From Oscillatoriophycideae cyanobacterium NC_groundwater_1537_Pr4_S-0.65um_50_18 (GTDB lineage Bacteria; Cyanobacteriota; Cyanobacteriia; Elainellales; Elainellaceae), in contig JACQYI010000022.1 in assembly GCA_016208305.1 (NCBI GenBank), positions 1-64,000 on the forward strand: DNA of 64,000 bases, given 5' to 3'. Both the position numbers and the translations under genes were made by a program. Each line of letters opens with the position of its first letter. The stretch's first letter is position 1. The notes beneath the pieces were generated by a model. That model was given only the letters and a program-made list of their open reading frames with translations. It searched no databases and was not told where the DNA came from. Positions 8,108 through 61,420 of this stretch are shown in pieces.

Positions 8108-8207
8108 ATTGGAACAGTTGATATTTCATATTCTTTTCATTTTATGCTCAACTGCGGCCAGAGTGGTGAAATTGCCTGAGGTTTTTAGATGTTTTTTACA
8201 TCAGAGG

Positions 8208-8558
8208 CTAAATTCCCACCTCGCGATCGAAGCGCAACATTTCTAAGCTGCGATCGCCATACACCCCTTCTATTTGCTGCTGACAGCAATCAATTGCAAA
8301 GTCGTTCAAGTCCTCTAGCTCGATACCGTATAAGTCTTGAAACACCTCAGGCTCAACGCGGCAAAACCGAGGGCGATCGGCATAAATCTTGCACTCTCGC
8401 GTTAGAGAGTCAAAGTGAATGCACCAGCCCCCTTCGCCAACCAGGCTGAGATAGAGCTGAAGTTCTTCAGGGGTGAGATATTGATCGAGATCGGGGCGAT
8501 CGGTTGGGTCTAAGTTGCAGCATGCCCCACACTGCTTCACGCATTGCCAAGTTGCCAT
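8208..8558 (-). CDS. YkgJ-family cysteine cluster protein
   Basis: About 116 residues. CVKQCGACC near the N terminus, then CIHFD, ECKIYADRPRFCR and DCC, form the cysteine cluster of the YkgJ/UPF0153 family, thought to bind zinc or an Fe-S centre. The biochemical role is not established. I prefer the ATG at 8558 (MATWQCVKQCG) over the one eleven codons upstream, because homologues start close to the first cysteine motif. It is divergent from psb30, 208 bp away, and 100 bp upstream of the hmx1-like gene on the same strand. Confidence 0.8.
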   Translation of the reverse strand: MATWQCVKQCGACCNLDPTDRPDLDQYLTPEELQLYLSLVGEGGWCIHFDSLTRECKIYADRPRFCRVEPEVFQDLYGIELEDLNDFAIDCCQQQIEGVYGDRSLEMLRFDREVGI

Positions 8559-8766: not shown

Positions 8767-8907
8767 ATGGACTTTTTAACAGGTATTTTTGATGGGCTGG
8801 GTGGCATTAACTTTGAAGCGATCGCCCAGCTAACCATGCTGGCACTCATCGTTATTGCAGGGCCAGCAGTCATTTTTGTGCTGGCGCTTCGGGGCGGCGA
8901 CCTCTAG
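8767..8907 (+). CDS. psb30: Photosystem II protein Psb30 (Ycf12)
   Basis: A 46-residue single-helix protein. Its C-terminal part, [20 protein letters not shown] followed by ALRGGDL, is the typical Psb30/Ycf12 helix and stop-transfer tail. Psb30 sits at the periphery of the photosystem II core near PsbJ and cytochrome b559 and stabilises the complex. The ATG at 8767 has GGGAGG at 8757-8762 as a ribosome-binding site. This is about 13 residues longer at the N terminus than the shortest family members. A hairpin terminator follows at 8942. Confidence 0.9.
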
Positions 8908-8941
8908 ATAGATTTCTAGATATATAGAAAGGTGTGGACAG

Positions 8942-8987
8942 AGAACAGCGAGCCGATCCGTACTGCGATCGTCTGCTGTTCTTTTTT
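8942..8987 (+). terminator. Terminator after psb30
   Basis: AGAACAGC (8942-8949) pairs with GCTGTTCT (8975-8982), with a T run reaching 8987. The loop is long (25 nt) and may fold internally. It starts 35 bp after the psb30 stop. Confidence 0.65.
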
Positions 8988-9345
8988 GTGCAGCTTGTGC
9001 AGTTCTCGACCGGAACAATCCCCGCTTCAGATTTGCTGTGTGAGTTGCCCAGAAGGTTTACAGGTTATTCCTTCTAGACAATCAGCAACGGCTCTGACTC
9101 AGAATTCAAGGAATAACAGATATAAAATTTTCCTTAATAAATTAAGCTAGCCTGACTAAGGGTTTCTCTCGGGTTTTTACCTGAAACCTAGGCCTTTAGC
9201 GCCATCAATATCGATACAACATCCACAAAAAGCCTTGGAAAACCCTTCTAGAGCGATTCTTTTTTTTGTATCCGAGAAAACACCTAGAGATGTTTTCCGT
9301 GGGTAGATGTTAAGATTTCGGTGACTGTAGCGTCGAGGAACCGTC

Positions 9346-24476: not shown

Positions 24477-25529
24477 CTATCGGCTGGTCGCAAAATAATG
24501 CTTTTGAAACCAGAAGGCAACATTCACGAGACCAATCAGCACAGGCACCTCTACCAGCGGGCCAACAACGGCAGCAAAGGCCGCACCCGAATGGATGCCA
24601 AAGACCGCAATGGCAACAGCGATCGCCAGTTCAAAATTATTCCCTGCGGCTGTAAATGCCACGCTGGCGGCTCTGGAATAGTCTGTTTTAATTCGCCATG
24701 CCATGTAGAAGCTGACAAAAAACATGACGACGAAGTAGAGGATCAGGGGCACAGCAATCCGCACTACGTCAAAAGGAATCTGCACAATCAGATTTCCTTT
24801 AAGACTGAACATCATGACGATCGTAAACAGCAAAGCAATCAGGGTGATGGGGCTAATTTTCGGCACAAATTGTTCGTGGTACCAGCGCTTGCCTTTCGCC
24901 CTCACCAAAAAGAACCGAGTCAGAAACCCAGCCAAAAAAGGAATACCCAAATAAATCAGCACACTCTGAGCAATCTCGGCAATGCTGACATTAACCACGC
25001 TGCCCTTTAACCCAAAGAGTGGCGGCAAGACGCTAATAAAGAACCAGGCATAGGGACTGTAGAAAATGACCTGAAAAATGCTGTTGAAGGCCACCAGTCC
25101 GGCTGTGTATTCTGTGTTGCCCCGCGCTAGGTCACTCCAGACCACTACCATTGCAATACAGCGAGCCAATCCAATTAGAATTAGACCGACCATGTACTCT
25201 GGATAATCGCGCAAGAAAGTAATGGCGAGTAGAAACATGAGTGCAGGCCCAATGACCCAGTTTTGCACCAGCGAAATACCGAGAATTTTGCCATTGTGAA
25301 AGACATCGCCCAACTCCTCATACCGCACTTTGGCCAGCGGCGGATACATCATTAAGATTAAGCCGATCGCAATTGGAATATTGGTCGTCCCGACCTGAAA
25401 CTGATTGATTACAGCCTCAATTCCGGGAAGAAAATAGCCGAGCGCCACCCCCATTACCATAGCTAGGAAGATCCAAAGAGTGAGAAAGCGATCGAGAAAT
25501 GAAAGGCGTTTTGACGCTTGAGACTGCAT
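24477..25529 (-). CDS. acr3: Acr3-family arsenite efflux permease
   Basis: A 350-residue permease with ten predicted helices of the ACR3/BASS superfamily. [25 protein letters not shown] starts the first helix. [20 protein letters not shown] holds the conserved cysteine of helix IV needed for arsenite transport, and [20 protein letters not shown] carries the conserved helix IX motif. It exports As(III), the product of arsenate reduction. Its ATG directly follows the stop of arsJ (TAG then ATG with no gap), indicating translational coupling. The symbol arsB is also used for cyanobacterial homologues. Confidence 0.95.
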
Positions 25530-26789
25530 CTAATCTCCCTCTCCTGCTTTCCAGACGATCGCTTTTTGGGGTTGTGGGTCAGGCAGCTTCAGTGAGATCA
25601 GCCCTGCTGCCAGCACAAAAAGAGTAGAAACCCACAGGCAACCCACCAGGTTAAAGAGCTGAAACACCAGACCCGAAAGCACAGTGCCGATTAAGCGGCC
25701 TCCAGAGTTCGCCATGTAGTAAAAGCCGACATTAAGCGCCACTTTGTCATCATCGGTGTAGGCCAGCACCAAGTAAGAATGAACGGCAGAGTTAAAGGCA
25801 AAGACTATTCCAAAAATCGCTAGACCTACAACAATCACCCCATCAGCCGGAAGCCCTAGCTGAAGCGCGATCGCAATTCCGGCAGGTACTGCAATTAAGG
25901 CAAACGTCCAAAACTGGATGGTGTTAGCGTTGGGTGGTTCACCGTTGCTAAATCGCTTCAGCAGCGCAGGAGCCAAGAACTGAACCAAGCCGTAGCCAAT
26001 CACCCAACAGGCCATAAAGCCACCCACTTGGTAAAACGACCAGCCCAACGGCCCACGCAAAAATACAGGCAACCCCACCACAAACCAAACATCTCTAGAG
26101 CCAAACAAAAAGAACCGGGCTGCCGAAAGAATGTTAATTTCTGGACTCTTAGAAAAGAGTTGGGTAAAGCCCACTTTCTTCTTGATTTTGCCCATGCCGT
26201 GGGGTAACAGGAATCCAGTCAACAAAACCAGAACTAACCCTGATGCCATCATCAGCAGAGCATTTTCAAAGCCAAATGCGGCGAGCAGTGCGGCTCCCAA
26301 AAAGAAGCCAACCCCCTTTAAAGCATTCTTCGACCCTGTTAGCACGGCCACCCATTTGAACAGCGATGACTGCGCCTCCTGCGGCACCACCAGGCGAATG
26401 GCGCTTTTAGAACTCATCTTGGTCAGATCTTTGGCAATGCCTGAGAAAGCCTGAGCCGTCATCACGTAGGCGATCGCCATTCCCTGTGACCAAGCCGGAT
26501 CGAGCAGCGCCAGCATTCCCAGTCCGACAATCTGTAGCGCAATCCCTGCGTAAAGGGTGACTTTTAGCCCAAACTGAGAGCCAATCCAGCCGCCTAGAAA
26601 GTTGGTGATCACACCAAAGATTTCGTAGAAGAGAAACAGAAAAGCGATTTGCAGCGGCGTATAGCCAATGTTGTAGAAGTACAGCAACACCAGCATCCGC
26701 AGCGCACCATCGGTGAGGGTGAAGCCCCAATAGGCGATCGTGACCAAAATGTAGTTGCGGAGATTGGCTTTGGAGGCAGTAGAGGTCAT
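25530..26789 (-). CDS. arsJ: Organoarsenical efflux MFS permease ArsJ
   Basis: A 419-residue major facilitator with about 11-12 helices. YILVTIAYWGFTLTDGALRMLV near the N terminus, AFSGIAKDLTKMSSKSAIR and FWTFALIAVPAG are typical of ArsJ. ArsJ exports 1-arseno-3-phosphoglycerate, which the adjacent GAPDH makes from glyceraldehyde 3-phosphate and arsenate; the product then breaks down outside. The neighbouring GAPDH gene upstream is the main support for the call. I take the ATG at 26789 (MTSTASKANLRNY), because the longer frame reads 56 residues through a low-complexity repeat. It is coupled to acr3 with no gap. Confidence 0.93.
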   Translation of the reverse strand: MTSTASKANLRNYILVTIAYWGFTLTDGALRMLVLLYFYNIGYTPLQIAFLFLFYEIFGVITNFLGGWIGSQFGLKVTLYAGIALQIVGLGMLALLDPAWSQGMAIAYVMTAQAFSGIAKDLTKMSSKSAIRLVVPQEAQSSLFKWVAVLTGSKNALKGVGFFLGAALLAAFGFENALLMMASGLVLVLLTGFLLPHGMGKIKKKVGFTQLFSKSPEINILSAARFFLFGSRDVWFVVGLPVFLRGPLGWSFYQVGGFMACWVIGYGLVQFLAPALLKRFSNGEPPNANTIQFWTFALIAVPAGIAIALQLGLPADGVIVVGLAIFGIVFAFNSAVHSYLVLAYTDDDKVALNVGFYYMANSGGRLIGTVLSGLVFQLFNLVGCLWVSTLFVLAAGLISLKLPDPQPQKAIVWKAGEGD

Positions 26790-26885
26790 GAGTGGAGAGG
26801 GGATGACGGGGGAGGGGTGGTTAGGATGACGGGGAAGGGATGGATAGGATGACGGGAAGGGGGTTCTTATCCCATCACCCCGCAT
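26790..26885. repeat. G-rich degenerate tandem repeat between gapdh and arsJ
   Basis: GGATGACGGG recurs at about 26802, 26823 and 26846 in a G/A-rich 96-bp spacer, a period of about 21-24 bp. It resembles the purine repeat before ggt in composition but not in unit. On the operon strand it is a C/T-rich leader for arsJ. Confidence 0.7.
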
Positions 26886-26890
26886 CCCAT

Positions 26891-27910
26891 CTACCCCTTC
26901 GGCAGACTCAAAGCCACTTTTCTGGCCAACTCCACCATGCGGTTGGCGTAGCCCCATTCATTGTCATACCAGGCAAAGATTTTCACCTGTGTTTCATCCA
27001 CAACCATCGTGGAAAGGGCATCAATGATGGAGGAGCGAGGATCGTCTTTGTAATCGATCGACACCAAAGGGCGTTCTTCATACCCCAGAATGCCCTTAAG
27101 CGGCTCCTGTTCAGAAGCTGTTTTGAGTAAGTGATTGACTTCCTCAACGGTAGTGGGTCGTGCCACCTCAAAGACGCAATCGGTCAGAGAGGCGTTGAGC
27201 AGAGGTACCCGAACAGCTAGACCATTTAGCTTGCCGTTGAGTTCGGGATAGATAAGACCGATCGCCGTTGCCGAGCCTGTTGTAGTTGGAATCAGCGACA
27301 GGCTGGTGGCTCTGGCGCGCCGCAGGTCTTTGTGAGGCGCATCCACAATCGTCTGCGTATTGGTGTTGTCGTGAATCGTCGTCACAACGCCATGCCGTAT
27401 GCCCAACCCCTCATGAATCACCTTAACTACAGGCGCAAGACAGTTAGTCGTGCAAGAAGCAGCCGTGAGCAAGTGGTGTCGATCGGGTTGGTAGAGGGCA
27501 TCATTTACGCCCATGACAATGTTCAACGCGCCCTCTTTTACCGGAGCCGCAACAATCACCTTCTGCACGCCTCGCTTGAAATAGGGATTAAGCGTTGCGG
27601 TAGTTCTAAACTGACCAGAAGCTTCTAGCACCAAATCTACGCCCAGATCTTCCCAAGGAACCTCTCCCGGCGTAGCATATTCGCTAAAGCTGAGGGCTTT
27701 GTCATCAATTACCACACGCTCCTCTTGGGCTGCCACTTCGGGTGTCCAGCGTCCGTGAACAGAATCGAATTTCAGCAGATGGGCGGCTGTGACGGCTCCC
27801 CCTTTAGTTTCGTTGATGTGAATAAACTCCAACTCAGGCCATCCCCAAGCCACCCGCAGTGCTAACCGCCCAATTCGCCCAAACCCATTAATACCGACCC
27901 TTATACCCAT
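26891..27910 (-). CDS. Glyceraldehyde-3-phosphate dehydrogenase of the arsenic locus
   Basis: A 339-residue GAPDH with the NAD-binding [15 protein letters not shown], the catalytic cysteine in [13 protein letters not shown] near residue 153, [21 protein letters not shown] and the C-terminal [19 protein letters not shown]. It lies immediately before arsJ. In characterised systems such a GAPDH uses arsenate in place of phosphate to form 1-arseno-3-phosphoglycerate for export by ArsJ. It is therefore probably a dedicated paralogue, not the Calvin-cycle or glycolytic enzyme. I use the ATG at 27910 ([11 protein letters not shown]); a longer frame to 28048 adds 46 residues without family support. 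Confidence 0.93.
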
Positions 27911-28117
27911 CGTTGATCTATCCCTACAAGTCTTAAAAAATGAATCTTTGCGCCTGGGCAGTCTACTCAATATATCAAATAAACTTGATTTAACAATCGC
28001 CTTCCCTTGTCCAGGCTTTCCGTAGAGCCTATTTTTAGGATTTAGCAAATCAATAAAAGTCGAACCGAGAAGCGATCGCTCTATCTCATCTCACAGACTA
28101 ATCTCATCCCACAGATT

Positions 28118-29188
28118 TTAGAAGGTTTGCTCTTTCTGAAGCACCTCTCGAATCGTCAGATAGGGTTGAGGCTTGCCCTCATAGGCTGTCCCCACTTCGC
28201 CTTTATAGAGATGCACTTCGCCAATGTCGTAGGCTTCTTGAGGCAAAGGAACATAGCCCACCTCCGCTGCAATGCGCTTGGCGTTTTTCATGTAGAACTG
28301 CACAAAGTCTCTTAAGGCCGTTTTCTGCTGCGAAGCTTGCACATTGACATAGATAAACAGCGGACGAGACAACGGTTGATAAGTAGCACTCTCTACCGTT
28401 TGGGGTGAAGGTAATACGGCTCCCTTTCCCCTACCATCGTCGATAGGTACTGCTTTGAGTCGGTTTCGATTTTGCTCATAGTAGGCAAGACCAAAAAAGC
28501 CTAAAGCCGCAGGGTCGCTCTCAACGCCTTCTACCAAAACATTGTCATCTTCACTGCCTGTGTAGTCTGTCCGAGTTTCTGCGCCCTCTGTAATCACTTC
28601 AGCAAAGTAATCATAGGTGCCAGAGTCTGTCCCGGCTCCGTAGAGTGTGAGGGGACGATTGGGGAAGGAAGCACGCACCTGTTGCCAAGTTTTGACTTTG
28701 CCTTGGGCAGCCGGTTCCCAAATTTTCTTCAGCTCTTCGACCGTTAACTCCTTAACCCAGTCGTTTTGCGGATTGACAACGATCGTCAGCGCGTCAAAGG
28801 CGATCGGCAGTTCGAGATAGCGAACACCCGCTTGCCGACAGGCAGCAATTTCCTCAGTCGAAATTGGGCGAGAGGCGTTGCTAATATCGGTTTCACCCGC
28901 ACAGAATTTTCTAAATCCGCCTGTTGTCCCAGAAAACTCAACGGCGATCGCTGTGTTGGGGTTAGCCTGCTGAAATTCTGTGGCAACGGCAGTGCTAATC
29001 GGATAAACCGTACTTGAACCATCAACTTTAATCGTTGTGGCTGTGCCCGATGCTTCACTATCTGTAGCGGCTGTTGAAGCTAAAGGATTGAGCGTTGGAG
29101 CGGGGGTGCTGCAAGATGCTAAAACCACCAAAACAGTTGTCATCAGAGAGAAAGGTAGCCCTAACCTGACCTGCATTGAAACAGTCAT
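28118..29188 (-). CDS. PstS/SphX-type phosphate-binding lipoprotein at the head of the arsenic locus
   Basis: A 356-residue periplasmic binding protein. The signal ends in a lipobox, VVLASCSTP, so it should be a lipoprotein. The mature part has [47 protein letters not shown] and the phosphate-contacting [12 protein letters not shown], typical of PstS/SphX. No pstCAB genes follow. Instead the arsenic genes lie downstream on the same strand (207 bp to GAPDH). It may sequester phosphate or discriminate it from arsenate under arsenate stress. AAGGAG precedes the ATG. Confidence 0.9.
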
Positions 29189-29244
29189 AAATCTCCTTAT
29201 AGATGAAGGTCTAACCTGTAAAGCTAGAGAAGAGAACCTTCACT

Positions 29245-29266
29245 TGTATCTAAAAATAGAGATACA
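29245..29266. promoter_or_regulatory. Candidate operator upstream of the pstS-like gene
   Basis: TGTATCT (29245-29251) is repeated inverted as AGATACA (29260-29266), 57 bp before the start codon. The position suits a repressor site for the arsenic locus, but no regulator gene is adjacent and I cannot match it to a known ArsR or Pho box. Confidence 0.3.
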
Positions 29267-29438
29267 TCAACTAAAGTTGATTGGTCAAGTCAAGAAGAAC
29301 ACAAGTCCAGAAAACTTTGACGATCGCTAGTAATGGCTATAGTTACAAGTATGAGGACAGGGATATCTTGTAGGCGCGGAGTGCGTCCACAAAATGTCCT
29401 AAGGGTAATGGCTACGGAGTGCTTAAAACAAGGGTTCT

Positions 29439-33583: not shown

Positions 33584-33672
33584 GATCGCGCCTAGCCTGT
33601 CACGATCGCCTCAGTTGCTCTAGCATTCAAGTAGCTGTCATTGGAAAGGCGAATACCTCAACCTGAATCGAT
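33584..33672. repeat. Toxin-antitoxin island repeat, copy 1
   Basis: The core CGCCTAGCCTGTCACGATCG and its continuation to GCTCTAGCATTC are shared with copies at 34218 and 34802. Beyond the core, copies 1 and 3 stay alike for a further 45 bp. This copy includes the 3' end of the RelE-like gene at 33658. Confidence 0.88.
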
Positions 33673-33978
33673 GTCATTCTCCTTAGAGAAAAGCCTCAGA
33701 GATCTGTAGATGTTGCCTCTGAAATCGATATCATGCACTTGCAGCCGATCAGCTTCTGCGTCGATTCGGAAAACGATGCGGGCTTTACCGACGCGCATTC
33801 TAAGAAACCCTTTCCATTCTCCTTTCAGGCTCTTGATATCCAACTCATTGAAAGGAATTATCCCTTCTGTTTCGATCGCCTCTAGGAGAGCCGCTAATTT
33901 CTCACGGAGTTTTTCGGCTTCTTTGGCTGAAAGCTTCCCCAGAAATTTGACAGCTTCTTTACTGAGGAAGAGTTCCAT
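33658..33978 (-). CDS. RelE/ParE-type toxin
   Basis: A 106-residue protein. LFLSKEAVKFLGKLSAKEAEKL, LKGEWKGFLRMRVGKARIVFRID and VHDIDFRGNIYRSL follow the beta-alpha-alpha-beta pattern of RelE/ParE toxins, with the basic residues expected for ribosome-bound mRNA cleavage or gyrase binding. It overlaps its antitoxin gene by 20 bp. Its stop codon lies inside repeat copy 1, where the DNA also reads in another frame as the tail of the YgiT-like gene (see findings). Confidence 0.85.
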   Translation of the reverse strand: MELFLSKEAVKFLGKLSAKEAEKLREKLAALLEAIETEGIIPFNELDIKSLKGEWKGFLRMRVGKARIVFRIDAEADRLQVHDIDFRGNIYRSLRLFSKENDIDSG

Positions 33979-34171
33979 GTTTGACCCAATCAGTCAGGTT
34001 GACAAACTCAGCTTCGGCATGAGCGGTGGGCACACCGAGTTTTTCCTGAATCTCCTGCATTTCTTTGTCGCTAACGGCAGGAATTAAAACCTGACAAAGG
34101 TTCAAGCGTTCTTCTCGGAGAACTTCTCGGATACTTTCTTTGACGAGTTGCTTCAGTTCAAAGGCTTCCAT
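33959..34171 (-). CDS. Antitoxin of the RelE/ParE-type pair
   Basis: A 70-residue acidic protein, MEAFELKQLVKESIREVLREERL at the N terminus and AEAEFVNLTDWVKHGTLP at the end. It is the first gene of the pair. Its size, the predicted helices and the 20-bp overlap with the toxin fit a type II antitoxin. I recognise no named DNA-binding family. Confidence 0.75.
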   Translation of the reverse strand: MEAFELKQLVKESIREVLREERLNLCQVLIPAVSDKEMQEIQEKLGVPTAHAEAEFVNLTDWVKHGTLPQ

Positions 34172-34217
34172 AGTAGTTCCTTATCTATCTTCGAGGGCTT
34201 CTACTTATTCTCAGTCT

Positions 34218-34261
34218 ATCGCCCCTAGCCTGTCACGATCGCCTCAGTCGCTCTAGCATTC
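34218..34261. repeat. Toxin-antitoxin island repeat, copy 2
   Basis: This 44-bp copy of the core lies between the HicA stop and the first module. It differs from copy 1 at three or four positions and does not continue past GCATTC. Confidence 0.88.
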
Positions 34262-34285
34262 CCTATTGCAACTGACCAGCAGTTG

Positions 34286-34525
34286 CTAAAACAAGCGCTC
34301 GACTAATTGGTCACGAGTCAGGTTGAAATGCTGGGCAACGTCTTTTAAAATTGAATTGAGCGTACCCACTTTGATGGGGCTGTGATTTGGAATCGTAACG
34401 TGATGTTCGCCGTTCTGCTGTGTTGTCAGGCGAATGTGGCTTCCGGTTTGGCGATCGATCTGATATCCCAATGATTTGAACGCCTGTGCCAACAGTTCAC
34501 CCGACAAGTCTCGCGGCAGTTTCAT
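34286..34525 (-). CDS. hicA: HicA-type mRNA interferase toxin
   Basis: A 79-residue protein. LAQAFKSLGYQIDRQTGSHIRLT carries the GSH motif with the catalytic histidine of HicA, and HHVTIPNHSPIKVGTLNSILKDV the conserved second half. HicA has a dsRNA-binding fold and cleaves mRNA. Its ATG overlaps the stop of the HicB-like gene by four bases (ATGA), indicating coupling. Confidence 0.92.
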   Translation of the reverse strand: MKLPRDLSGELLAQAFKSLGYQIDRQTGSHIRLTTQQNGEHHVTIPNHSPIKVGTLNSILKDVAQHFNLTRDQLVERLF

Positions 34526-34731
34526 GAGGCAATCACTTCATCATGCACTACATGAAGGCGAATCAGCTTGGGGCGGGTTTCCTCATCAGAAAAGTGGCAG
34601 TGAACCGCGTCTCGGACGAATCCTTTGAGTTCTTCCAGGCTATCTGCTTGGGTAAAGATAGATTCTCCGATCGCCCTGGCGGTATAGCCACCGTCGGGAT
34701 CATCTTCAACTAAGAAAATAATTTCAGTCAT
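34522..34731 (-). CDS. HicB-like antitoxin (DUF1902 type)
   Basis: A 69-residue protein. IIFLVEDDPDGGYTARAIGESIFTQADSLEEL matches the partial RNase-H-like fold of short HicB antitoxins, without a C-terminal DNA-binding domain. It precedes hicA with a four-base overlap. The pair should be autoregulated, but no operator is evident in the 70 bp upstream. Confidence 0.85.
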   Translation of the reverse strand: MTEIIFLVEDDPDGGYTARAIGESIFTQADSLEELKGFVRDAVHCHFSDEETRPKLIRLHVVHDEVIAS

Positions 34732-34801
34732 CGGCTCATCCTGATCTTTGAGGGTTCATTTCAGTTATACCCGCGATCGCCCCTCAGCTTTGAGCCAAGA
34801 C

Positions 34802-34889
34802 GATCGCCCCTAGCCTGTCACGATTGCCTCAGCTGCTCTAGCATTCAAGTGGCTGTCATTGAAAGGCGAATACCTCGACCTGAATCGAT
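34802..34889. repeat. Toxin-antitoxin island repeat, copy 3
   Basis: This is the long form, collinear with copy 1 over about 88 bp and differing at about six positions. Its last part codes for the C terminus of the YgiT-like protein (34856-34889). Confidence 0.88.
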
Positions 34890-35119
34890 CGCATAGAGGA
34901 ATGTGGTTCATGGAGGAGCTGACGAATTTTCTCTGTGGTTTCTCGGCTGAAGGTTGGCTCACCACAGCGATCGCAGACTTTTGCGGGAATGTTTTCTACC
35001 AGGACGGGTTTACCGTTGATTTGAAACACTTCGTCTACTCGCTCTGGATGAGGCTGAGCCACAGACATGACATTGAAACATGGCGATCGGATGGGGTCGG
35101 AGTTTTTGAGCTGCATCAT
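34856..35119 (-). CDS. YgiT-type zinc-finger protein
   Basis: An 87-residue protein. VDEVFQINGKPVLVENIPAKVCDRCGEPTFSRETTEKI is the second half of the YgiT/MqsA zinc-finger domain, with the CxxC pair in CDRCGE. The first CxxC pair that normally starts the domain is missing; only one cysteine (SPCFN) precedes it. It starts nine bases after the DUF2442 stop, so the two are one unit. In other genomes YgiT proteins act as antitoxins or accompany small toxins. Confidence 0.8.
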   Translation of the reverse strand: MMQLKNSDPIRSPCFNVMSVAQPHPERVDEVFQINGKPVLVENIPAKVCDRCGEPTFSRETTEKIRQLLHEPHSSMRSIQVEVFAFQ

Positions 35120-35127
35120 GTCTACGG

Positions 35128-35394
35128 CTATCCAGCTTGTTGGGTGGCTTGCCAGTTTGTATCTGCTTGGCTCTCCAGGTATAGAGTATCGGCGCTGAAG
35201 TCTTGCTCGTGAAGCCATTGCACGCCGCCGAAGAAGGGCTTGACTCGATTGAAGTAGTGAATATCTTTGAGTTCTACAAATATGCCTCGCTCTAGATATG
35301 GCGCGACATCAAAGCGTTTAACTTCGCCGTTGCTGAAGAATAGCCGTAGGGTGAAGTTTACGAGTGGCTCAACTTTGGTGACTTTAGGTGACAT
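35128..35394 (-). CDS. DUF2442 protein
   Basis: An 88-residue protein. NFTLRLFFSNGEVKRFDVAPYLERGIFVELKD and FFGGVQWLHEQDFSADTLYLES match DUF2442, a family often found beside DUF4160 in toxin-antitoxin-like pairs. Here it pairs with a YgiT-like zinc finger. Which of the two is toxic cannot be told from sequence. Confidence 0.82.
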   Translation of the reverse strand: MSPKVTKVEPLVNFTLRLFFSNGEVKRFDVAPYLERGIFVELKDIHYFNRVKPFFGGVQWLHEQDFSADTLYLESQADTNWQATQQAG

Positions 35395-35421
35395 CTTTGT
35401 GATCCTCTCCAGCGTCAGGGG

Positions 35422-35763
35422 TCAATCTTGAAGAATCGCCGCTTTGATGTCTTCTGCAGTGACATCGGTTTGATCAAGCTTTGAGTAGATCAGCAGCAGC
35501 AAGACAGAGTTAGGCGATTCAACCTGGTAGATGAGTCGGTAGCCTGCACTTTTTCCTTTCTGAATAGCGCTATTTTTAACGCGAACTTTCAGAACTGTAA
35601 AACCTGTTCCGGGAATTTGGTCACCCACAAAGTTGCCGACTTGCAGTTGCTCAAATACAGGCTGAAGATCGGCTCGGATCTGGCGATATTTTTTTGCAAG
35701 ATTTCGCAAACGGCGTTGAAATTCGGGTGCGGCTCGTACCTGCACAGGCAGATCACTCGACAT
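35422..35763 (-). CDS. RelE-family toxin
   Basis: A 113-residue protein with the RelE fold: VRAAPEFQRRLRNLAKKYRQI, FTVLKVRVKNSAIQKGKSAGYRLIYQV and LLLLIYSKLDQTDVTAEDI. The Arg/Lys/Tyr residues of the third and fourth strands are the usual active region. Its start overlaps the antitoxin stop by 11 bp. Confidence 0.88.
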   Translation of the reverse strand: MSSDLPVQVRAAPEFQRRLRNLAKKYRQIRADLQPVFEQLQVGNFVGDQIPGTGFTVLKVRVKNSAIQKGKSAGYRLIYQVESPNSVLLLLIYSKLDQTDVTAEDIKAAILQD

Positions 35764-35989
35764 CGATGTCGTTCCAGAGTTCTGAGAGGGGAATGGTTTG
35801 TCCGGCTCGTGCCTCTTTCCAGGCTTGGCGCAAGCCGCTCAGGACGCTTTCTTGAGATTCATCGTCTTCATCCATGTCTGGAATCAGCACAATCACTTCG
35901 ACCCGACTGTCTTTAGCCAGAAGCAGGGGATCATCCAAGGAAAGTTGTCCTTGCGCATCAATGGTTGCCATTGCCTTGATTGCTTTCAT
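35753..35989 (-). CDS. Antitoxin of the RelE pair
   Basis: A 78-residue acidic protein. MATIDAQGQLSLDDPLLLAKDSRVEVIVLI looks like the swapped-hairpin start of an AbrB/MazE-like or Phd-like antitoxin. The acidic IPDMDEDDESQ linker and the SELWNDIDVE tail would bind the toxin. An internal ATG at residue 7 is another possible start. It follows the NB-ARC gene by 56 bp on the same strand. Confidence 0.78.
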   Translation of the reverse strand: MKAIKAMATIDAQGQLSLDDPLLLAKDSRVEVIVLIPDMDEDDESQESVLSGLRQAWKEARAGQTIPLSELWNDIDVE

Positions 35990-36240
35990 TATGCCTCAAC
36001 AGGGGTCTGCGAATGGTTTTCCACAGCGTTGGTTGTCACTTCAGTTTATCTTTCCTTTCCGGTTTCTTCTTGAAGTTGCTCTAGCACATCCTGTGTTGTT
36101 GGGTGAGCGGACAACTGCGCGGTTTGCCCTGCCTGAATCACCTGCCTCAGAAACTCAATGAAATTACTCCAAACGGTTTGGAAGCTGGGATGAGTGTCGC
36201 CCAGTCGATGATAAAAAATTACCACTGCCCGAAGATACAA

Positions 36241-36618
36241 TGGCTCGGCATCACTGTAGCGTCCGGTGGTTCTGTACAACTCTGCCAAATTGTTGAGGCT
36301 GAGGGCTGTGTCGGGATGGTCGGCTCCTAACTGCTGTTCTCTAATTTGCAGCGATCGCACATACAATGGCTCGGCATCACTGTAGCGTCCGGTGGATTGG
36401 TACAGCGCTGCCAAATTGTTGAGGCTGAGGGCTGTGTCGGGATGGTCGGCTCCTAACTGTTGCTCTCTGATTTGCAGCGACCGTACATACAATGGCTCGG
36501 CATCACTGTAGCGTCCGGTGGATTCGTACAGCGCTGCCAAATTGTTGAGGCTGGTTGCCACAGCGGGATGGTTTTTGCCTAGACGGGTTTCGGCGGTTGC
36601 TCGGCATTGTTCCAACCA
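36241..36618. repeat. Three 126-bp tandem repeats coding for TPR units
   Basis: Units begin at 36241, 36367 and 36493 and share long identical blocks such as TGGCTCGGCATCACTGTAGC. Each encodes one 42-residue TPR. Units one and two are the most similar, which points to recent duplication or conversion. Confidence 0.85.
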
Positions 36619-37094
36619 CGGTTGCGCCTGGGCATAGGCCGCCTGTCCTTGATAAAACCAGGCAATTCGAGTGTAGGGCGTAATCAAGTCATCGTCTGTG
36701 AGGCAGTCGGTGAGGGCGGTTGCCACTTCTTCTAGATGGAGAATGAGAGGCGTGAATTGGGCAATTAGATCTAGCGTTGGGGTTTGGGGAATTTGTCTTG
36801 CCTCTGCCACCATCACCCGACACAGAGTTTGCTGCATCGCGGCTTCGGCTGGCATTTGCTGCCGCTTTGCCGCAAAGAATTCTCGCAAGAGCTGATGCAG
36901 TTGGTATATGCCTGCCTCCGAGCGTTGCAGCAGATGCAGCCCCAGCAAGTCCTGATCTCGCACATCCTCCAGATCTTCGGCATCCCACTCCGGCAAACAG
37001 GCTTCCACCAGCGTCCAAGCGATCGGTGCGAGGGCAAACAAACTCAGCCATGCGGCTAGCTCTTTTGCCGACGGCTTCAGCTCTTGCCAACTCA

Positions 37095-37186
37095 ACTCAA
37101 ACGCCGCCGCTACCCCCAGCGATGCCGTCATGCCGGGTTCACTCAAACGCCGCCGCTACCCCCAGCGATGCCGTCATGCCGGGTTC
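37095..37186. repeat. Exact 46-bp tandem duplication in the NB-ARC gene
   Basis: Positions 37095-37140 and 37141-37186 are identical (start ACTCAAACGCCGCCGC, end GCCGGGTTC). Both encode EPGMTASLGVAAAFE on the minus strand. As 46 is not a multiple of three, the second copy shifts the frame and creates a stop at 37139. Confidence 0.95.
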
Positions 37187-37924
37187 GGCTTGCAGCAGCC
37201 CTTTTGCCGCCAGCCGCTGTTCTGCCAATCGTCGGTACAGTTCTGCCAGTGAGAGATCCGGCTTGCGATACAGATACCGCGCCAATAGCTCCAACCCCAA
37301 CGGCAAGCCGCCCACCCACCCACACAATGCCTTTGCGTCAGCTAACTGCGCGTCAATCCGTCCATCCTTAACGATCGCCCTCAGCAAATCTAGCGCCGCT
37401 GCCTCACGCAATACCTCCAGCCGCAACTGCCGCACCGATGCCCCCAGATCCACCCGCGTGGTGAACAAAACCTGGAAGCGATCGCCCCTCGGCGGCAGGT
37501 AGGGCTGAACTTCGGCATAGTTGGTTACGTCATCCCAGATCAGCAGCGCCTTGCCCTCGCGCCAGTGGCTCCAGCAATAGGCAACCTGCTGCGGCAAATC
37601 CAGCTCAGTCGGCAGCGATAAGTCTAAGTGAACTCTGGCAAAGCCGACAATTTGAGTGCCGATGTCTTCCCGCGATCGCAGCCAGCACAAGCCCCCCGGA
37701 TATTGGTCTTGCGCCAGTGCGCTATAGGCATACTGCAACGCCAATTCGGTCTTGCCGATGCCACCCATGCCCTGAATTGCCGTAATTGCCAGCAGGTTAG
37801 ATTCCTGGAGGCGATCGTGCAGCTTTTGTAGGTCGGCTTCTCGCCCGACAAATTCAGTGGCTCCGGTGTAGGGCAAATTGTGGGGCGTACCTAACTCTGT
37901 CGGTGCCATTCCCGACGACTCCAG

Positions 37925-38478: not shown

Positions 38479-38759
38479 AAACGCTAGCTTTCCCACTTTC
38501 ATCAAGAGCTGTCACGCTTTGAACTCGAAGCGTCACGCTTTGAACACGAAACGCCGCACTTCTGATTCAAATGATGCCGTTCAGAACGCGAAACATCTCA
38601 CTTTTTACTCAAACAATGCAGCTCAGAACTCGGAACGTCACACTTTTTACCCGAACGATGCCGTTCAGAACGCGAAACGTTTCACTTGAAACCAAAACAC
38701 TGCTGTTTCAAACCAAAACATTGCTATTTCAAACCAAAACACTGCTGTTTCAAGTGACA
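38479..38759. repeat. Degenerate 21-bp-period tandem array upstream of the NLR-like operon
   Basis: About thirteen units with a 21-bp period. Typical phases begin CAGAACGCGAAACGT, CAGAACTCGGAACGTC or TCAAACCAAAACACTGC, and the last three units (38695-38753) are nearly identical. On the plus strand it is open and reads as heptads such as MPFRTRN, VTLFTRT and LLFQTKT. I do not take this as a gene, because the start is arbitrary and the reading frame ends in non-repeat sequence. A second array with the same period lies at 60814-61024. Confidence 0.8.
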
Positions 38760-38859
38760 TTGATGGAGGAGGCGATCGCAATTTTTGTTTTTGAGGGGCG
38801 ATCGCTGATAGTTTTGGCTTCCCCCTTTTTGTCGAAAACTGCAACAGCCCCCATTGCGC

Positions 38860-42726: not shown

Positions 42727-45700
42727 CTACCTTGCCACGTATCCTGACGCATTGGGATTGTAATTGGCAAACATCGAGCCATTGGAGCTATAAAGCTCGA
42801 TCGGCACCTGAGCAGTTTTGCCAATATCGGCCAGGTTTCGTAGCAGTTCGTTCACCTGCGTCGTCACCTCAGCCCGAGCACGGGCATCTCCTTGAGTTTG
42901 AGCGCGGGTAATTACATTTTCCACCGCCTGATCATATTGTGGTGTCACCTGAATCCGAATTGCGGTCGGCGATAGCGTGTAGGTGCAAACTTTGGACATT
43001 CCGGCCTGTGACTTCAAATTCGCTTCTAGGTTGGCTCCCAACTCTGTGCCGAGACAGGCGCGATCGAGATCAGGCTTGACACGCTGCATTGCACTCGTCC
43101 GATCCAGATTGGTTTCGGCTTGGGTAAGCGCCGCTTGATATTCGCTGACGAGGGGCTGTGCCTGACTATAGTAGGTGGTGCCTTGAGAAATTTGCTGGAT
43201 ATTGGTGAAAGCACTGCGCCATGCTGCAACCGCTTGAGTCCATTGGTTTTGCCGTTCCCAGTTCCTGGCCTGCTCTGCCAACTTTACGGCTTCCTGATAA
43301 GAGCCTGTAGAAGCCTGCTCTTGGTTGCGGCGGTTATCGGCCTCTGCCATTTTAGACTGGTAGAGGCTAATGAACTGGGCAGCTTCAGCATGAGCCATTG
43401 TGCCTTGAGGCACCTGTTGCAACAAATTAATGGCCGCTTCCCAGGTCAGATAAACCTGTTGCCAGCTTTCGGGGGTTGTGGCGAGATTTGCTCGGTTTTC
43501 TGCCACCTCGGCAGTTTTGCGTGCGGTCGTCACTTTGTCTTGGGCACCTTGCTCAACCAAGACACGGCGATCGGTTGTGTCGAGATTAACTTTATACTCC
43601 GCCAGCTTTTTTTGCGCTAAAGACAAAACAGGGCTGTCAGGAGGCACTTTCTCCAGCAGGGCGATCGCCTCTCGCCAGTCCCACTGGATTTGTCGCCACT
43701 TCGGTAGCGGATGAGGTGGATTTTGGCTCTTTTGAGCAGCTGCATTTCCTTGCTTTAAGGCTTTGACAACTTGCCCAAGCATCTTTGATTTGTTTTCGTA
43801 GGTTGCCTGGAGGGCTTGTGCCGCCTGATGCTGGCCTGACCAAGAGGGAATGGTTCCGAGAAGATAGTTAGCTTCGGTAAGTTGGTCGTAGGCTTCAACA
43901 ACGGCTAGGGCAGAATCGGTAGTGGCGATCGTCTGGGTGGCCTGCTGGTCGAGCTGTTGTGCTTTTTGTATGGGTTCACACACTGACCCCAGCACGCAAG
44001 GACGGCTAAGTACATAAGCGCCTGTAACCAGGCCAAACAATCCGACAGCGCCCCCTAACATCAGCGTTGACAGGGTGAAGCCTGTTCTAGATCGGGGAGG
44101 CTGGGAATCTCCAGGGACTGCGTTAGATGTGGCCGGACTTGAGGCTTGCGCTCCAGGCAATTCACCTTCTAAAGGCTTGAGGGTCGGAGTTGAGATTTCA
44201 GACTGAGGCTCCACCTTTTCGGGTGTCGGAGTAGCTAGAGCAGAAATATTGGGGGCGATCGCTTCAGACGGAACGGGTTCGGGTTCTGCAATTTCAGACG
44301 GCTGGATAAGCGCCATACTGTCGTCGCGATCGACTTGAATACCCTCTACATCTGACAATTCTGAGAGACTCTGAAGATCGGATACCTCCTCCGAAGGGGA
44401 AGGGTAGTCAGTAACTTCATCGTGAGGCTCAAGAACGCTGGCAGTTTCAGCTGCACCGATTTCAGCGATAAGGATTTCAGGTTCAGAAATCTGAGCTTTA
44501 GGCTCTCCTGTTTCAAGCTCAGAGATTTCTATTGCAGGTTCAGCACTTTCATAAATCTCAGGCTCAACCTCATAAATTTCAGGCTCAAAAACTTCAGGAG
44601 CGATCGCTTCAGGTTCTTCAATCTCAGGTTCAACCTCAGAGGCTTCTGGCTCAAAAATTTCTGGAGCGATCGCTTCAGGTTCTTCAATTTCAGGGACTTC
44701 TGGCTCAGAAATCTCAGGAACTTCTGGCTCAAAAACTTGTGGGGCGATCGCTTCTGGTTTAGAAATTTCAGGGACTTCTGGCTCAAAAACTTGTGGAGCG
44801 ATCGCTTCTGGCTCAGAAATCTCAGGTTCAAAATTAGAGACTTCTGGCTCAAAAACTTGTGGAGCGATCGCTTCTGGCTCAGAAATTTCAGGGACTTCTG
44901 GCTCAAAAACTTGTGGGGCGATCGCTTCTAGTTCTTCAATTTCAGGGACTTCTGGCTCAGAAATTTCAGGAGCGATCGCTTCTGGCTCAGAGATCTCAGG
45001 AACTTCTGGCTCAGAAATTTCAGGAGCGATCGCTTTTGGCTCAGAACTCTCAGGTTCAGAAATCTCTGGCTCAATCTCAGGGACTTCTGGCTCAAAAACT
45101 TGTGGAGCGATCGCTTCCGGCTCCGAAATCTCAAGTTCAAAATTAGAGACTTCTGGCTCAAAAATTTCTGGAGCGATCGCTTCCGGCTCAGAAATTTCAG
45201 GCTCAGGGACTTCTGGCTCAACCTCAGAAATTTCAGGCTCAGAAATTTCTGGGGCGATCGCTTCTGGCTCAGAGATCTCAAGAACTTCTGGCTCAAAAAC
45301 TTGTGGAGCAATCGCTTCAGGTTCTTCAATTTCAGGGACTTCTGGCTCAAAAACTTGTGGAGCGATCGATTCCGGCTCCGAAATCTCAGGTTCAACCTCA
45401 GAGGCTTCTAGTTCTTCAATTTCAGGGACTTCTGTCTCAGAACTCTCAGGAGCGATCGCTCCTGGCTCAGAACTCTCAGGTGCAGGCTCAAAAATTTCAG
45501 GAGCAGCTACCTCAGGAGCAACCTGTTCAGGGATAATAATCGTTTCTTCTAGAGCGATCGGATCATAAATTTCAGCTTTGAGCACTTCAGCCCACCCTTC
45601 AGGCAATGTCTCTAGCTGCGGCAGCTCATCCTCAGCGATCGTAGTTTCTTCTGTCACAAGAGCTTCAGAAATAGGAGCTTCTGGCTCAAAGGCGACAGCT

Positions 45701-59941: not shown

Positions 59942-60436
59942 TCAATTTCCTTCACGGGCTAATTTCAGCACAGCCGCGTGAGTAGACTGAGCAATCCGGA
60001 AGTTGAGTGCATGAAGTTGGTCAAGAATAGGAGCGATCGATTCTATAAGCCCTATCTGTTTTGCCTTTAAAAGCACACCTAATGTACCTGCCACTGTGAG
60101 GTTGAGTTGACGAGCATATTTTCTAGCGAGGGCATCGTCCAGAATAACCAAAGCATTGGGCATCGTAAGGGCTAAACTCAATACTTCGCGTTCACCTCTG
60201 CCAAGATTAGGAAGATCGGGCACCAGCATTGATTCAGCGACCTGATGCAAAGTAATCCAAGAAAGAGAATCTGAATCCGGAAGAGAAACACCTTGCGATC
60301 GACCTTGAGCCAGTTCATCTGCAACGGCTTGGGGCATGATGATTTGCCCATATAAGGCTGGCAGCAGATTGAGAAGATTGGTTTGGTAAAGGTATTGAAT
60401 GGGAGAGGTGTCAGTAATGACTTCAGGCATTGGCAA
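59942..60436 (-). CDS. DUF3368 PIN-like toxin
   Basis: A 164-residue PIN-like protein. MPEVITDTSPIQYLYQTNLLNLLPALYGQIIMP, LGRGEREVLSLAL and NALVILDDALARKYARQL supply the Asp/Glu/Asp set. DUF3368 genes pair with UPF0175 antitoxins. The start overlaps the antitoxin gene by 14 bp. Confidence 0.9.
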   Translation of the reverse strand: MPMPEVITDTSPIQYLYQTNLLNLLPALYGQIIMPQAVADELAQGRSQGVSLPDSDSLSWITLHQVAESMLVPDLPNLGRGEREVLSLALTMPNALVILDDALARKYARQLNLTVAGTLGVLLKAKQIGLIESIAPILDQLHALNFRIAQSTHAAVLKLAREGN

Positions 60437-60674
60437 GATCCTCTGCCAGTTCTGCCTCCGTCAGGTGAAAGGTATCAACACCATAGTCAGCCAACCTGGA
60501 CAAGAAGATGGTGCGTGGGATGCCTGCCAGGTTTGCAGCCGCACCGGAAGATAACCGACCGAGTTCATAGAGTTTGACAGCCGCAATCAGGAGCATCTCG
60601 CGACTAAGGTTTTCGGGAGCAACTTGAAGGGCTTCAACAGTTTCTTCTGAAATCGATAGAGTGATCGTATACAT
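60423..60674 (-). CDS. UPF0175 antitoxin
   Basis: An 83-residue protein. TITLSISEETVEALQVAPENLSREMLLIAAVKLYELGRLSSGAAANLAGI matches UPF0175, which contains a ribbon-helix-helix-like or HTH unit. I use the ATG at 60674; the frame remains open upstream to 60986 only because it enters a tandem array. It precedes and overlaps the DUF3368 toxin. Confidence 0.9.
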   Translation of the reverse strand: MYTITLSISEETVEALQVAPENLSREMLLIAAVKLYELGRLSSGAAANLAGIPRTIFLSRLADYGVDTFHLTEAELAEDLANA

Positions 60675-61420
60675 GGATGGTGCCCTTACAAACTCCCTTT
60701 GCACCCTAGCATAGCGCTGTGGCTGCCTGGAGAATTCATATCGTTCGTCCAAGTTTGAACCGCAAGAGCAGTGGTGTGCGATCGCCCCATTGAACTGAAA
60801 AGCGATCGCCCGATGAAGGTCGGCGTTCCAAGTTCTGTTCACGAAGTGTTGCGTAGCAAAGTCAAAGTTTCGTGTTCTGATGTTGGAGAATGGCGATCGC
60901 CCCTCAAAGTTCCGAGCATTGAAGTCGGTATTCCCAATTCTGAAGCCCATGTTTCGAGTTCTGAGGTCGGAGAATGGCGATCGCATCTCGAAGTTCCAGG
61001 CTTTGAGGGTGGAGGGTGGCGATCGCCCTTCTCTCCAAAAGCGATCGCCTCTTCTTCCTCAATTGATCCAACTGCATATCAGCCTTTACAATTTCATTCA
61101 ACAAGTCATGAAAACTCTAACAAAGCACTTGATGGATAGATTTCTGGCATGGAGGGACGATCGCAGTGGTCGAGCGCAATTGGTAAAAGTTCAGCCTGAA
61201 CCAAATGCTCAATTTGGCTACGACTTTGTGCCAATTCCTTAATGGGTAGGTCTATTAGGAAGCCTGAGAAGACATTTGCCCTGCTGAGGCGATCGCCCCT
61301 TTCCACCAACATCCCCTCCAATTCACCAGCAGAATCCTCTAACAGCGGCACTGTTTCCTCACCCGTCCATAGGCTCGTTCAAAAATTTTCACTTAGGCCG
61401 CAAACAGCAATGCCGTCGCT
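60675..61420. other. 746-bp gap holding the second tandem array
   Basis: Besides the 21-bp-period array (60814-61024), this stretch has several HIP1 octamers and no supported gene. Short frames on both strands here read through HIP1 sites and look spurious. Confidence 0.45.
60814..61024. repeat. Degenerate 21-bp-period tandem array upstream of a toxin-antitoxin pair
   Basis: Ten units of 21 bp start at 60814, 60835, 60856 and so on up to 61003. Several units share CTGAGGTCGGAGAATGGCGA-like or CGAAGTTCC-like cores. On the minus strand the heptads include LRTRNMG, FNARNFE and IRTRNFD, echoing the RTRN heptads of the array at 38479. Confidence 0.75.

Follow-up and report, generated by a model that had tools for sequence, protein, structure and literature searches.

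How do toxin–antitoxin (TA) pairs of different families come to lie in a row on a chromosome, with the same short repeat behind several of them? The question is raised by a stretch of 64,000 nucleotides (here called the window: positions 1 to 64,000 of contig JACQYI010000022.1, assembly GCA_016208305.1) from Oscillatoriophycideae cyanobacterium NC_groundwater_1537_Pr4_S-0.65um_50_18. In it, four small two-gene modules, A to D, lie head to tail on the minus strand within 2.4 kb (33658-35989), headed by a gene for a STAND-type, immune-receptor-like protein with NB-ARC and TPR domains (the head gene). The toxin and antitoxin families recognised in them make these predicted type II TA modules. A first-pass annotation, made from the letters of the DNA alone, had described four such pairs and a 44-bp core after the last gene of three modules; open reading frame (ORF) calls and family searches bear out the former, and the core copies were placed correctly to within one base (33585, 34218, and 34803). 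It also proposed that the pairs are gained and lost, like cassettes, by recombination between the repeats. Module replacement, a scar, and blocks that match from spacer to spacer all support this proposal, and we put at about 0.6 the probability that the locus is an integrase-free TA cassette array in which the spacers are the recombination substrates for gain, loss, and shuffling.

A cassette would consist of a two-gene TA or TA-like pair plus a tail, that is, a copy (about 60-110 bp) of the 3′ end of an NB-ARC/TPR gene such as is found at the head of the array. RecA-type homologous recombination between tails, or between copies of the 44-bp core in the window, would excise, insert, swap, and homogenise cassettes, and a module with its tail, once excised as a circle, could reinsert at any tail.

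The Core and Its Origin

The three copies of the core are not due to chance: a 23-bp core pattern, allowing at most three mismatches, has three matches in the window and none in 100 shuffles. Within its own genome, only these three copies, all in the array, are found at E<0.01 (the next match, of 24 bp, has E=0.015), and a dispersed repeat or miniature inverted-repeat transposable element was rejected on these grounds. Among 36 genomes of the order (one per species, the sample used throughout), the core is present in three, all of one genus. A search of the genome and its relatives thus finds the core only in such TA arrays, rather than scattered over unrelated intergenic places. A degenerate form of the pattern matches two contigs in genome_contigs, where the genome itself is possibly left out, and none in viral_contigs.

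Part of the origin of the core emerges from comparison with G005 and G006, two of the three genus mates of the window's genome. Of its 44 bp, 24 match the coding end of the head gene of G005 (96%); the other 20 bp or so have no match to the sequence behind that gene in G005. Some repeats in G005 and G006 continue into the last 20 or so codons of the head gene, and the G006 version reads TAQLSDHPTTQAVLEQLRRS followed by a stop. These matches indicate that the window core derives in part from the 3′ end of the NB-ARC/TPR gene, a relationship invisible from the window alone. In stretch L039, one core copy (8157-8209) has the loop between its two palindrome arms inverted relative to the other copies.

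A further 45 bp had been described as common to two copies. Copies 1 and 3 do share such sequence (about 33628-33677 and 34846-34894), which turns out to be where a YgiT gene ends on its 3′ side. This end is native in module C, at copy 3, where likeness to the related stretch L124 begins at 34860; the flank of copy 1 translates as TSIQVEVFAFP, compared with the YgiT terminus RSIQVEVFAFQ. As judged from this translation, the shared 45 bp at copy 1 is a deletion scar of module loss, ending at the core.

Tail-Spaced Arrays in Related Genera

A 32-residue tail query finds repeated short copies in other genera of these filamentous cyanobacteria. There, the spacers copy more of the NB-ARC/TPR gene's 3′ end than the window core does. 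One array, in genome G016 (stretch L114), has eight modules and seven tails, one of which is the head gene's own, leaving six orphan tails. The order after the head gene is PIN, RelB-like/ParE, VapBC, helix-turn-helix (HTH)-PIN, YafQ, MazEF, YoeB, and RelB/ParE, with the YoeB pair inverted and only a short tail end visible at the YafQ-MazEF junction. The toxins have family matches (including YoeB, PemK, YafQ, and PIN), two of ParE type lying near or below the cut-off. Inspection by eye is the basis for the HTH gene, and position that for several of the antitoxins. In genome G011 (stretch L116), a YafQ-type pair, HicBA, YafQ, VapBC, and MazEF follow one another with a tail at every junction.

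When five NB-ARC/TPR proteins were compared with 15 array stretches, keeping the best match per 150-bp bin, the listed matches fell mostly in the last 15-50 residues. The remainder are TPR pieces in L114 (8009-8275), L117 (3277-3336), and L142; no NB-ARC pieces occur among the matches listed. How far the tail copies extend on the 5′ side differs, their limits lying between about 15 and 90 codons. In a wider sample of the phylum, the tail motif occurs in 13 of 386 genomes. Closely spaced tail pairs were seen there only in G067 among the matches listed, single short-frame tails elsewhere not having been examined. Separately, a match in G241 that lies inside another gene was judged to be chance.

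Signs of Module Exchange, Replacement, and Loss

Blocks in G016 and G011 match from tail to tail in a different order (MazEF 78.8%, YafQ 78.7%, and VapBC 74.8% identical). The arrays of G009 and G013 have a common flanking gene (82.7%) and HicBA-type sequence, with different modules between them. Within the genus, the NB-ARC/TPR and HicBA anchors of the window are about 93% identical to those of G005, and the modules between them are unrelated apart from core or tail copies; between anchors of this identity, window 34838-36073 and L039 8815-10434 have nothing in common except such copies. RelE and HicBA stand in opposite order in G005 and G006. These comparisons show tails placed between modules, homologous modules arranged differently from one array to another, and scars of loss at the spacers. 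The first-pass annotation had suggested looking for modules missing exactly between copies: modules are indeed replaced in a genus mate and a scar lies at a core, but these are footprints rather than events. In L039, about 290 bp of DUF6883 are missing (8854-9132) relative to G006, which leaves DUF4926 there without a partner.

The sample yields 69 tail rows, 41 of which are short-frame tails (open frame <149 aa). Neighbours were assigned automatically, with TA labels spread from representatives via similarity clusters. The counts from this sample are given here together with what weighs against the cassette reading. A pair with a TA-family member adjoins 24 of the 41 short-frame tails. The question of whether the core borders other small-gene pairs is answered through these related, longer spacers: a TA or TA-like pair adjoins 34/41, on both sides for 19, although in ten of the 34 the pair is a DUF, XisHI, or unnamed one, and several antitoxins were labelled by position. 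The other seven (in G024, G007, G014 (three), G009:C66, and G022) have no TA-type neighbour. At least seven of the 41 may be cut or broken head-gene ends (G018, G021:4189, G007, G013:6652, G011:1538, G014:357749, and G009:57910), and when these are excluded, 29 of 34 tails have a TA or TA-like neighbour. A strict recount, accepting only genes from clusters whose representative exceeds a TA cut-off, gives 17/41 within 150 bp, 24/41 within 400 bp, and 25/41 within 600 bp. As a background, HicA has 119 matches in the 36 genomes, 7 of them within 2 kb of a tail row compared with 0.105 expected from rounded genome sizes.

Of the 111 ends of 28 blocks, 67 are no more than 30 bp away from a tail (circular-shift mean 25.1, maximum 49; 0 of 2000 shifts reach 67), but these ends depend on one another and coincide with gene ends as well. 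The tails for this count were listed manually, with the window cores and two short ends in L114 among them. Among 37 tails from seven genomes, mean identity is 0.694 within genomes (94 pairs) versus 0.566 between them (572 pairs), and none of 5000 permutations, which ignore shared ancestry, is as extreme. Tails behind the same module in different genomes have a mean identity of 0.625 (12 pairs, range 0.51-0.80), which suggests that some tails travel with their modules; behind MazEF, the tails are 51% alike while the block itself is 79% alike. The overall pattern suggests that tails undergo some homogenisation within each genome and that some of them also move along with modules.

Other points on the same side of the scale concern the arrays themselves. 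Module D lacks a core, and there is none between D and C; in G008, three modules occur without any orphan tail. The tail profile cannot pick up cores as short as those of the window; the link from core to tail runs through G005 and G006, and the head-protein scan gave no match in the window, L137, L139, L141, or L145. Moreover, the end of the resident head gene differs from the array spacers in both the window and G016, so the spacers are not simple copies of it. Finally, no recombination event, circle, or strain-level empty site was seen among genomes that represent one per species.

Alternative Explanations

Integrases are known to insert at the 3′ end of a gene and restore that end. One alternative, which we consider unlikely, is that an unseen integrase inserts small elements in this way at the 3′ end of the NB-ARC/TPR gene, the tails then being the att sites of accreted elements. 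It would suit the observation that likeness between the head genes of the window and G005 stops exactly after CTAGAGCAACT, beyond which the window's own last codons differ, and that the core copies end in almost the same short stretch. However, a scan of array proteins, covering many but not all array ORFs, revealed no recombinase, and one DDE transposase, in G011, sits within the head gene itself. The varying 5′ limits of the tails are unlike a fixed crossover and, together with matches confined largely to terminal residues, fit homologous recombination better, without amounting to proof. Another possibility, slightly more doubtful, is that whole units, each comprising an NB-ARC/TPR gene and a module, arose by duplication or relocation, with the gene copies then decaying to their ends. 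The TPR sequence kept in some spacers (the pieces in L114, L117, and L142) and the presence of more than one NB-ARC/TPR gene in several genomes are what such leftovers would look like; against this, no NB-ARC remnant occurs among the best-per-bin matches to the 15 stretches, and adjacent modules come from unlike families, a feature that simple tandem duplication leaves unexplained.

Two further explanations are very improbable. If the spacers were attC sites used by an integron integrase, they should carry the boxes RYYYAAC and GTTRRRY, and a crude finder of untested sensitivity detected no paired R″/R′ boxes in six arrays. An integrase model does exceed its cut-off in 18 of the 36 genomes of the order and in none of 14 control genomes; the window's own genome has only integrase fragments, on contigs C41 and C62 and not beside the array, and the spacers resemble the 3′ end of a gene. 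TA cassettes are common in integrons, according to the part of the source available (PMC8618304). The integrases in the order are possibly solo integrases; at nine integrase loci (L146-L154), the same crude approach gave one attC-like site, in L149. If, instead, the core were a terminator or promoter, repeated because every TA operon needs one, the folding of copy 1 as a DNA hairpin (z -2.83) and a TATAAC in the flank of copy 3, upstream of module B, would be in keeping with this. Yet the hairpin is absent from copies 2 and 3 and was for this reason rejected as a conserved feature; there is no terminator-like site at any core, and two other HicA places in the genome have no core copy.

Genes of the Window Array and Its Surroundings

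The coordinates of the array are collected in Table 1. Homologues of the module A toxin were found in L114 and L121. The YgiT frame of module C is open to 35218, and its start near 35068 is placed by comparison with the relative L124 (4279-4509). The naming of the module B antitoxin as HicB and of YgiT and DUF2442 as a pair is inferred from position.

Table 1. Features of the TA array and head gene (positions in the window).
Feature	Position	Strand	Basis
Core copy 1 (44 bp), 3′ of module A	33585-33628	.	Repeat and similarity search
Scar: remnant (last ~11 codons) of a lost YgiT gene, behind module A toxin	33628-33677	-	Repeat; translation TSIQVEVFAFP
Module A toxin, ParE/YafQ-like	33658-33978	-	PF05016 (21.5 bits) and TIGR00053, both below cut-off
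Module A antitoxin, RelB-like	33959-34171	-	PF25734, below cut-off
Core copy 2 (44 bp), 3′ of module B	34218-34261	.	Repeat and similarity search
Module B toxin, HicA	34286-34525	-	PF07927 (E=1.4e-14), above cut-off
Module B partner in HicB position	34522-34731	-	Position only; no family match
Core copy 3 (44 bp), 3′ of module C	34803-34846	.	Repeat and similarity search
Module C YgiT/MqsA-like zinc finger	34856-35068	-	TIGR03831, above cut-off
Module C DUF2442 protein	35128-35394	-	PF10387, above cut-off
Module D toxin, RelE/ParE	35422-35763	-	Family matches below cut-offs
Module D antitoxin, RelN	35753-35989	-	NF050107, above cut-off
Head gene, TPR half (tail at 36070-36153)	36046-37146	-	Domain search
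Head gene, NB-ARC half	37139-37909	-	Domain search

The head gene of the window is the orthologue of that of G005 (93.4% over 1067 bp), where it forms one frame of 596 aa. In the window, it is split by a change of frame at a 46-bp tandem duplication (37082-37173), and may be either a pseudogene or a reversible switch. Short imperfect repeats (38500-38760) lie upstream of the 170-aa gene that precedes it, with similar ones in G005. In G011, the transposase gene that interrupts an NB-ARC/TPR gene (L115 2398-3438) is of the DDE_3 family and presumably of IS630 type.

The left flank of the window array is matched in part in G007 and not at all in G005 or G006; the counterpart of the left flank of the G005 array sits on another contig of the window's own genome, with no array seen there, and the G006 array adjoins a gene that has no array beside it in stretches from G000, G005, and G007. 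Window 25008-29306 (and L083) matches the array contig of G005 in the opposite orientation, which indicates that the neighbourhood is rearranged. Carriage by phage was rejected, since viral_contigs held no core pattern and no phage record similar to the window array was found. Five cyanobacterial plasmid records match 3-15% of the length of the window array, as single TA genes or pairs. For the G016 array, there are 225 plasmid records, 203 of them from Enterococcus; the matches listed cover about 2% each, and none of the 225 covers 80%. PADLOC gave one weak TPR match among eight proteins. Elsewhere in the window, a two-gene pair at 59942-60986, which we take to be a PIN-type toxin with its antitoxin, has no core nearby, and a 1225-aa protein contains long glutamate- and proline-rich repeats (44000-45400).

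Relation to Known Systems and Significance

In its working, the array would most resemble the orphan-module arrays of contact-dependent growth inhibition (CDI) and Rhs systems, though with self-contained TA pairs. In the available part of a study of those systems (PMC3150448), the modules are found downstream of a large gene, with which many of them share a homologous stretch, and exchange by recombination within that stretch is one proposed model. Here, modules preceded by a stretch homologous to the head gene occur in the related genera and in G005 and G006, the window having only 24 bp. Unlike in CDI/Rhs, the shared stretch consists of the terminal codons of the gene, and the head gene encodes NB-ARC and TPR domains rather than being CdiA or Rhs with a toxin C-terminus. 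The arrays of chromosomal integrons are similar in that they, too, string together small genes, including TA pairs, with a site behind each whose copies resemble one another within a genome (PMC8618304, in the part available); they differ in that here no attC boxes and no nearby integrase were found, and the spacer resembles the end of a gene.

The array is also a TA island in the sense of Makarova 2009, with several unlike pairs closely packed (four modules in 2.4 kb here and eight in G016), the statistic of that paper not having been applied. In the available part of that paper (PMC2701414), tandem duplication is judged insufficient for such islands, possible causes are offered without a mechanism, and no shared spacer or substrate is described; tails would fill this place here. 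Among the literature matches listed, none describes tail-spaced TA arrays, subscription papers being mostly outside the search.

What the head gene might do with the modules behind it is more speculative. The TA pair directly behind it may be expressed with it, so that recombination between tails would load other TA effectors onto a bacterial NLR-like receptor; this effector swapping, which we hold to be quite unlikely, likens the downstream TA store to the orphan modules loaded onto cdiA. The first TA-type or paired gene lies 37-138 bp behind the head gene, on the same strand, in G000, G005, G008, G009:C85, G010:C115, G016, G021, and G022, and the pairs differ among these eight genomes; other NB-ARC/TPR genes (G000:130253, G009:C66, G010:C30, G010:C223, G027, and G031) have no adjacent TA-type gene.

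In the tails, there would be a physical substrate that could explain one type of TA island. If the cassette reading is true, cassettes would here be exchanged with no dedicated recombinase, and the array would link a STAND immune-type gene with a pool of TA pairs.

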